64,000 nt of DNA from Peptoniphilus duerdenii ATCC BAA-1640 (GTDB taxonomy: Bacteria > Bacillota > Clostridia > Tissierellales > Peptoniphilaceae): contig NZ_GL397071.1 in assembly GCF_000146345.1 (NCBI RefSeq), positions 155,328-219,327 on the forward strand. Direction: 5' to 3'. The notes under the pieces are model-generated. The model was given only the letters and a program-made list of their open reading frames with translations. It was not told the DNA's origin and searched no databases. Positions 1 through 63,160 of this stretch are shown piece after piece; position 1 is the first letter of the stretch, and each line of letters opens with the position of its first letter. The position numbers were made by a program, and so were the translations under genes.

Positions 1-150
1 GTAGGTTTTGTCGACGAGACGTTAATTTCCTCCCGCCCCCTCGTAAAAAAAAGATTTGAAGAAGAAAGATTATATTTTAAAGAAGTGTAGGATATTTATT
101 TACATTTATTATAATATTTTTAATTCATCACTGTTCGACCTCACCAAGGT

Positions 151-340
151 TATACCCGTTCGACTCACTGCGTTCGCTCAGGGTGACTGTAGTTGTGAGA
201 TTTATAGTAGCCTCTCGGCTGTGGAAGCAAAATGCTTCCGCTACGGGTGTGGATAATAAGTACAGTTACACTTACGCCTTACGGCTAAGTTAGGAAAATT
301 TAGTGTCAAGGCTGATGGAAGCTGGTAGCTTCCGCTACAG
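151..340. repeat. Dispersed intergenic repeat, copy 1
   Basis: Non-coding stretch built of modules that recur elsewhere in the window. Positions 151-200 match 61491-61540 almost base for base (core TTCGACTCAC, then CGTTCGCTCAGGGTGAC). Positions 219-248 carry a short palindromic module (GGAAGC AAAAT GCTTCC) also found at 12631-12660 and 63036-63064. Positions 272-339 carry a third module (TTACGGCTAAGT ... TTCCGCTAC) found again at 12668-12749 and near 63088-63155. Short open frames over it are by-products of the repeat. Nothing else is visible in 1-420 apart from AT-rich DNA in front of the next gene. Confidence 0.8.
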
Positions 341-12125: not shown

Positions 12126-12298
12126 TTATTAAATGAGGTTATACTTCGCGTAAACCTTAAGGAAGGTAGTCACCATGAGCGAGTATTAGTCGAAGGATCT
12201 CTTAAAAAAACCAATTGCAAAGGCTGGTTAAATATAGGTCAGATCCTTCGACTCGGAAATAAATTTCCTCGCTCAGGATGACCAAGTGAAAGGGTTGC
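12126..12298. repeat. Dispersed repeat region with long inverted repeat (copy 2a)
   Basis: Left arm 12169-12200 (GTCACCATGAGCGAG ... GTCGAAGGATCT) is the reverse complement of the right arm 12241-12282 (AGATCCTTCGACT ... CGCTCAGGATGAC) with one inserted segment, so a transcript could fold a long hairpin. Positions 12226-12253 recur at 61571-61598. No coding potential is evident. Confidence 0.75.
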
Positions 12299-12349: not shown

Positions 12350-12377
12350 CTGTAGAAGCAAAATGCTTCCGCTATGG
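12350..12377. repeat. Short palindromic repeat module (copy 2b)
   Basis: TGTAGAAGC AAAAT GCTTCCGCTA matches the modules at 219-248, 12631-12660 and 63036-63064 with a few changes. Confidence 0.7.
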
Positions 12378-12423
12378 CAATAATATATTTTTCTGCATTA
12401 AAATAATAATTACATTTACATAA

Positions 12424-12596
12424 AATAAAAAGCTCCAAAAGAGATTCCGTCTGGAAGAAACTCGTAAAATTCAAACCTAAGGAGACCGGCTGCAAATCGC
12501 ACTGTTTGAGAGAAGCGAGCCTCTATTTGCAGGTCGACGTGGTTTAGAATTTTTGAGTTTCTGTAATCGGAATCGTCTTGGATCTTTTATTTTTGT
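12424..12596. repeat. Long imperfect inverted repeat (about 75-nt arms)
   Basis: Left arm about 12424-12499 and right arm about 12526-12596 are imperfect reverse complements: GATTCCG pairs with CGGAATC, GAAACTC with GAGTTTC, TCAAACC with GGTTTAGA, and TGCAAAT with ATTTGCA. The loop holds CTGTTTGAGAGAAGCGAG. Transcribed from either strand it would form a hairpin of about 170 nt. It sits among the dispersed repeats between rplQ and murA and may be a non-autonomous element or RNA; no identity is claimed. Confidence 0.65.
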
Positions 12597-12604
12597 TATG
12601 ACTG

Positions 12605-12750
12605 CAGTTGAGAAGTCTTATAGCCTTTGGCTGTGGAAGCAAAATGCTTCCGCTACGGGTATGTATTAATTTGGTTTTTTATACGCCTTACGGCTAAGTA
12701 AAGAAAGTTTAGTATCAAGGTTTATGAAATATGGTTGCTTCCGCTACATA
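12605..12750. repeat. Dispersed intergenic repeat (copy 2c)
   Basis: Contains the palindromic module (12631-12660) and the third module (12668-12749; TACGCCTTACGGCTAAGT ... GCTTCCGCTAC) in the same order and spacing as at 219-339 and 63036-63155. Confidence 0.8.
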
Positions 12751-61091: not shown

Positions 61092-61172
61092 TAGCTAAGA
61101 TTTTAATAGTTTACAAAAGTATTAAATTTGAGAATTCCTATCTGAAAATTTTGTAAAATTTTTATATTTTTA

Positions 61173-61800
61173 TGTTGATGCTATCAGCAGACTGTTTCAA
61201 CCAATCGGCTACGCCTCTTGGGAAACAGGTTGCATCACACCTGCTAAGACTCACTACGTTCGTCTTTAGATGTAGACGTATAGCATGTGTTTTTATTTTT
61301 TTGTTTTTGATGCTATCCGGATATCATGTGTTATCATTGTTATTTTTTGTAGTGGAAGTACCAGATGGAGACAGTCACCCTGAGCGGAAATGACGAAGCC
61401 AAAGGCTGAGTCATTGGAGTCGAATGGGTATAACCATGGCGGGGTTATGTATGGATGATTTCACTTGCCTTGACTAGGTTAAATATAGCTTATACCCGTT
61501 CGACTCACTTCGTTCGCTCAGGGTGACTGCAATTGTAAAGGTATTTTGTAATATTTTTTTGGAATAGATGGGTTAAATATAGGTCAGATCCTTCGACTTC
61601 GACGGCAAAAGCCGTCTTCGCTCAGGATGACTGTAGTTGTGAGGTTCATTGTAGCGTCGAAGCCCTAGCCGAAATCTTTGATTTCGTAGCAGGTCTCGTG
61701 CATAGTTCCAAAGAAGACGAGCATTGCGAAGGCTGATTTGCAGAACTCGACTGCCTCTCAGGATGACCAAGTGAAGGAGTTGACCTCATAATTTATTTAA
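61173..61800. repeat. Dispersed repeat cluster with nested hairpins (copy 3)
   Basis: About 600 non-coding bases. 61188-61225 folds a hairpin (CTGTTTC / GAAACAG). 61374-61433 and 61478-61526 are an inverted pair (GTCACCCTGAGCG ... GGGTATAACC against its complement). 61491-61540 match 151-200; 61571-61598 match 12226-12253; 61660-61767 match 62898-63006 (both carry CCCTAGCCGAAATC and GATTTCGTAGCAGG). No coding potential. Confidence 0.8.
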
Positions 61801-62869: not shown

Positions 62870-63160
62870 TGGACCTAGATATATGTCAGATTCTTCGAAG
62901 CCCTAGCCGAAATCTTTGATTTCGTAGCAGGTCTCGTGCATAGTCCCAAAGAAGCCAAACACAGTGAAGGCCGATTTGAAGAACTCGACTGCCTCTCAGG
63001 GTGACTGTAGTTGGGAAGACTTTTGTAGCCTTCGGCTGTGGAAGCAAAATGCTTCCGCTACGGGATATTTATATGTGTTTAAAATTTCTTACGGCTTCGC
63101 CTGAGGAAAGTGAGTTTAGTTTCTAGGTTTATGGAAGCTGATTGCTTCCGCTACAAAATT
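62870..63160. repeat. Dispersed intergenic repeat, copy 4
   Basis: 62898-63006 match 61660-61767; 63036-63064 are the palindromic module; 63088-63155 are the third module. The order equals 219-339 and 12631-12749, so this is a composite element. The rest of 62762-62870 is AT-rich upstream sequence of the M48-like gene, with no further gene. Confidence 0.8.

Follow-up and report, generated by a model that had tools for sequence, protein, structure and literature searches.

GTAG-tagged REPs in BIME-like mosaics form a species-specific repeat family in Peptoniphilus duerdenii

RAYTs (TnpAREP) are HUH Y1 enzymes that cleave REP hairpins, with the tetranucleotide GTAG proposed as a guide, and the REPs on which they act are characterized by a GTAG at the palindrome foot (PMC8266576). 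The biochemistry of RAYTs and the properties of REPs have been described in several reports (PMC8266576, PMC3733652, PMC6006769). GTAG REPs have been reported from Proteobacteria, Cyanobacteria, Chloroflexi and PVC, and head-tail (HT) dimers are said to be absent or under-represented among them (PMC3733652). The family described here, from P. duerdenii, resembles this superfamily (Di Nocera 2013, PMC3733652) in its 5' GTAG, 6-bp perfect palindrome, more than 100 copies, intergenic location, bias towards convergent gaps and gene 3' ends, restriction to one species and compensatory stem subfamilies. It differs from the superfamily in that the head-tail dimer is the main dimer and in that one C stands between tag and stem.

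The window analyzed is a stretch of 64,000 nucleotides from P. duerdenii ATCC BAA-1640 (contig NZ_GL397071.1), in which an earlier note had recorded modules repeated in the same order, among them a palindrome. Read on the minus strand, the palindrome starts with GTAG (GTAG-C-GGAAGC-N5-GCTTCC-A), and it is a real module, its pattern matching five times in the window and 0 times in 100 shuffles. Three same-order composites were located, all on the minus strand. In composite 1, REP B (GTAGCGGAAGCATTTTGCTTCCA, an exact match) occupies 222-244 and REP A (GTAGCGGAAGCTACCAGCTTCCA, a pattern match) 316-338; the spacer hairpin of the A unit, GCC-GTAA-GGC, recognized by covariation and folding, lies at 273-288 on the same strand, and REP B has a second hairpin, AGCC-GAGA-GGCT with a complementary CTAC foot, at 209-220. 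Composite 2 pairs REP B at 12634-12656 (a pattern match) with a degenerate REP A (three mismatches) at 12725-12747, and composite 3 is formed by pattern matches at 63039-63061 (REP B) and 63132-63154 (REP A). The fourth B unit of the window, a degenerate solo copy with two mismatches, is found at 12353-12375, also on the minus strand.

Across the genome (2.12 Mb in 15 contigs), the GTAG REP pattern gave 129 matches with up to three mismatches, against 3 for the reversed pattern, and BLAST found the composite at 46 places at least. The proposal of a dispersed, amplified, non-autonomous element is thus borne out, and can be refined: this is a GTAG-tagged family of REP/BIME type. The four intergenic loci counted earlier are intergenic, but the number was too low, given the genome-wide matches and their roughly 50 chromosomal clusters.

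The anatomy of the family was read from a 333-kb sample, made up of stretches around the copies and five spot controls and containing 127 REP units. The repeats have the sequence features of GTAG REPs: the GTAG tetranucleotide stands at the foot of a short palindrome and is exact in 120 of the 127 units, conservation sets in sharply at the tag, and the stem is kept, with pair 9-17 being G-C in 99 units and C-G in 18, a compensatory change. The base before GTAG is a pyrimidine in 122 of 123 cases; as for a conserved CT cleavage site upstream of the tag, no single position exceeded 16%. Of 200 shuffles, 197 fold less well than the composite. A reading as an RNA family, raised in the earlier note, found no support, since an Rfam covariance model scan of the repeats returned 0 matches and the stem covariation fits DNA hairpins as well.

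The fixed unit consists of two different REPs, A on the left and B on the right, in the same orientation and with small GCC/GGC hairpins. The A unit is followed by a linker of 27-28 nt (CTTGATACTAAATT...) and then by a GCC/GGC hairpin whose middle pair switches between C-G and G-C, pairing being preserved in 26 of 28 instances. B runs directly into AGCC-loop-GGCT, and CTAC, the complement of GTAG, ends 17 B units. B-type loops are present in 25 of 27 B units and in 0 of 27 A units (p=4e-13). The order of the composites is indeed fixed, with 32 pairs of same-orientation neighbours spaced 90-94 nt apart in the sample; inverted neighbours number five, at 135-336 nt. Five units act as both A and B and form short tandem chains, while 68 of the 127 units are solo and mostly B-like. 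The family resembles BIMEs and REPINs as a mosaic of distinct REP types and linker motifs with tandem chains, and is unlike them in that its pairs are direct, not inverted, and are chained to GTC-tagged hairpins. The CTAC ends recall the double-foot REPs of TnpAREP subclass 2.4 (PMC6006769), although the B body is made of two small hairpins and not of one long stem.

Among 130 genomes of the taxonomic family, representing 39 genera, the repeats occur in the P. duerdenii genome only. The 129 other genomes contained no copy with one mismatch or fewer, except for one chance-like match in one genome, and the sister species (G001), the sole other genome of the genus compared, had no GTAG REP above control. 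The composite pattern was absent from 84,980 species genomes, a set from which the organism's own record was possibly left out; the single unit appeared there as 62 scattered singletons, one per contig and in many phyla, few more than the roughly 7 that base counting predicts. Plasmid and phage records held no repeat copies, and viral contigs held two singletons. The earlier remark that similar motifs occur in many bacterial genomes fared badly in what was a weak test, the GTAG module being effectively unique to P. duerdenii and the GTC motif, as a closed element, being absent from 759 kb of DNA from other genomes. Outside subscription journals, a literature search found no earlier report of REPs in Peptoniphilaceae. 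A suggested comparison of empty sites was made at one gap, downstream of rplQ: the sister species is free of repeats there, but its gene order differs, and the gap is therefore not a clean empty site.

That no transposase lies near the repeats was supported. A RAYT was sought in the P. duerdenii genome by Pfam, by NCBIfam and with the protein of the sister species, and none was found in this assembly, which has scaffold gaps; nor was a REPtron found in it, in which a cognate RAYT is flanked by the same REP (GTAGCGGAAGC being the hairpin expected beside it). The sample contains 25 scaffold N runs, often at repeat arrays, so a RAYT may hide in the gaps. Loss of the REPtron is also documented for E. 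coli (PMC3733652), and for both reasons the missing RAYT does not exclude REP membership. All that the genome has is a decayed remnant of an IS200 TnpA, whose flanks are different and which showed no shared hairpin.

The sister species has a gene for a RAYT-like protein of 160 aa. This protein matches NF047646 at E=8e-18, though below the curated cut-off of that model, and exceeds the cut-off of Pfam Y1_Tnp; its best match in PDB is TnpA-REP 4er8 (E=0.002), and it resembles TnpAREP subclass 2.4 in the motifs NHLH, WQ and YISNNP (PMC6006769). Seven GTAGGGACC palindromes surround its gene, and these GTAG palindromes differ in sequence from the P. duerdenii REP. In the family as a whole, a repeated GTAG palindrome, of differing sequence, occurs at 8 of 21 RAYT loci vs 0 of 30 IS200 loci (p=3e-4). 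GTAG hairpins number 74 in 70 kb at RAYT loci (the sister-species locus counted twice), whereas IS200 loci, with 11 in 97 kb against 9 in shuffles, are equal to shuffled sequence. The GTAG palindromes of Peptoniphilaceae thus accompany RAYTs and not IS200. Next to a RAYT in another genome (G045, locus L248), REPs occur both in direct tandem, one every 108 nt, and in inverted pairs; these direct tandems are a precedent for head-to-tail arrays in Peptoniphilaceae.

The repeats are probably lineage-specific GTAG-tagged REPs in BIME-like mosaics, spread by a RAYT-type HUH transposase. In favor of this reading are the copy number, the GTAG tag at a perfect palindrome, the covarying stems, the sharp start, the intergenic placement, the fixed head-to-tail A-B units, the absence from relatives, and the RAYTs that the sister species and other family members have beside GTAG palindromes of different sequence. 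Counting against it are the lack of a RAYT in the organism's own assembly, the lack of a clean empty site, the possibility that recombination raised the copy number, and the direction of the pairs, 32 of them direct at 90-94 nt vs five inverted neighbours, which is not the inverted arrangement of BIMEs and REPINs. On this view, a RAYT-type Y1/HUH transposase would have placed single-stranded copies of the hairpins at new sites, with GTAG as the guide, as proposed for known REPtrons, and the A-B dimer would be what was mainly amplified and usually carried. Insertions would be tolerated between genes and purged from genes, and the modules may later have recombined. The transposase may have been lost or may lie in a scaffold gap, so that the REP population is now probably an orphan, decaying and recombining. 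To our knowledge, the way in which REPs move is unproven in vivo.

An alternative treats the A-B unit as a two-ended miniature element of IS200/IS605 type, with A as the left-end and B as the right-end hairpin, both on one strand; a Y1 transposase would serve it in trans, and its 130 bp would move as a single-stranded circle. The direct orientation, the constant 90-94 nt spacing, the distinctness of A and B and their fixed order all agree with it, as does the presence of a decayed IS200 TnpA; in IS608-type elements, both ends form hairpins on one strand, each with a guide tetranucleotide on its 5' side (PMC6006769, PMC8266576), and IS200/IS605-derived MITEs (PATE) likewise have same-strand hairpins at fixed spacing. 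Yet there is no match to the IS200 hairpins of the family, solo units are common, many solo B units have unrelated flanks, A-A-B chains proceed at 92-nt steps, and it is the RAYT loci of the family, not the IS200 loci, that have GTAG hairpins above shuffle. We consider this alternative unlikely.

The modules at 61.4 and 62.9 kb belong to a second hairpin family, distinct from the GTAG REP. The TCGACT...CGCTCAGG motif corresponds to this hairpin, which reads GTCAYCCTGAGCG-tip-GTCGAA(Y)GGRT; the family pattern is GTCAYCCTGAG...GTCGAA..GGRT, with interchangeable inner hairpins, and its members are chained to the A-B composite. The related modules reported earlier are all present, at 12169-12282, 61374-61767 and 62895-63005. 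One GTC-tagged hairpin (GTCACCCTGAGCG-AACGCAGTGA-GTCGAACGGGT; 148-187, minus strand) is chained to composite 1. Others lie at 12169-12200 (plus strand, one mismatch), at 12237-12282 (minus strand, ATCC..GGAT type, inner hairpin GGAAATTTATTTCC), at 61374-61435 (plus strand, ACCC..GGGT type, 34-nt nested inner hairpin), at 61488-61527 (minus strand, 12-nt tip) and at 61587-61631 (minus strand, ATCC..GGAT type, inner hairpin GACGGC..GCCGTC). A module of about 113 nt, in which the tip of the GTC hairpin is a structured insert of ~97 nt, occupies 61657-61767 on the minus strand, and its second copy (62895-63005, minus strand) directly adjoins composite 3.

In the 333-kb sample around the GTAG REP copies, with its five spot controls, the outer stem of the GTC hairpin takes two compensated forms, ACCC..GGGT in 131 and ATCC..GGAT in 34, with four mixed. 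The tips are a few recurring cassettes of 12, 19, 22-23, 29, 32 and 33-34 nt, most of them palindromic; the ~97-nt insert is a further kind of tip, and the 113-nt module that it yields has more than 40 copies in the genome, mostly at 83-93% identity, with BLAST matches at 56 or more places. The hairpin resembles CGTC-tagged REPs in its GTC-AYCC...GGRT stem, starting A-T then Y-R, and in having no known transposase, and is unlike them in its tips of 12-34 nt or ~97 nt. The CGTC tag itself is not kept, nor is TGTC the rule, since A precedes GTC in 125 of 182 cases (C in 27 of 182). A literature search on the GTC sequence showed no repeat paper among the titles listed. In the consensus, the GTC hairpin tends to come after composites on the canonical strand, and several REPs join the 113-nt module at one and the same junction; the intergenic gaps are therefore mosaics, as in BIMEs.

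Further repeats were observed in the window. Positions 12414-12595 hold a separate repeat of ~180 nt that folds into one long nested hairpin (-51 kcal/mol, z -4.1) and has six more copies at 86-96% identity in the 333-kb sample, without a match in Rfam. Another dispersed repeat, at 61166-61294, has the ends GATGCTATC...ATAGCAT and the core CACTACGTTCGTC, with five other matches in the sample. Positions 1-125 take in the margin of one more repeat rich in hairpins (GAGACGTTAATTYCCTCCC...CTCGTAAAA), which is also present beside scaffold gaps, and a run of 342 N bases directly precedes the window.

The mosaics of GTAG and GTC modules could also have arisen without transposition, if template switching, gene conversion and unequal recombination had copied and shuffled the modules from one hairpin-rich gap to another. 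The junctions do fall at hairpin borders, inner hairpin tips have been exchanged between the two outer stems, flanking modules are shared, and scaffold gaps cluster in repeat arrays. Such a process leaves unexplained how the repeats arrived at about 50 places with unrelated gene neighbours, and why they have the GTAG tag in common with the RAYT-linked repeats of relatives; as the main mode of spread, it is improbable.

The placement of the repeats matches that described for REPs (PMC3733652). As reported earlier, the copies lie in gaps between genes: only one of the 127 sampled units falls inside an ORF of at least 120 aa, where 86 would be expected at random, and that spurious ORF is itself largely repeat DNA. 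Convergent gaps are enriched for REPs (odds ratio 6.4, p=2e-4); of 67 cases, 45 have a 3' end as the closest gene end. No GTAG REP lies at 1.30-1.90 Mb (~600 kb) among the matches listed, the chromosomal clusters being elsewhere; a skew change near 1.5 Mb, within this stretch, probably marks the replication terminus. Beside the repeats at one locus (L187:3738-3920), a small bacteriocin-like ORF with a double-glycine-type leader (MDKNFLVLNEQELMLVDGG) was seen. A role in transcripts or in chromosome structure (stability of 3'-UTRs, binding of gyrase or nucleoid proteins) could be the main reason why the repeats persist, with spread a secondary matter. This would agree with the 3' and convergent bias and with the folding of the composite, but is very improbable, as there is no conservation in any relative and no Rfam match, and the placement is also accounted for by the purging of harmful insertions.

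Compared with typical REPs, the repeats of P. duerdenii are unusual for their head-to-tail heterodimers, for their chaining to GTC-tagged hairpins and for the lack of a visible transposase of their own. It is conceivable, if doubtful, that A and B are the two ends, left and right, on which a RAYT-type enzyme acts; the head-to-tail A-B heterodimer would then be a minimal single-strand transposon made of REPs, whose units swap hairpin tips as cassettes, and would supply a missing link from REPs to IS200/IS605 elements. A head-to-tail REP family confined to one species, and a sister species whose RAYT is intact and whose REPs are different, make a testable pair for the study of REP birth, RAYT loss and dimer mobility.
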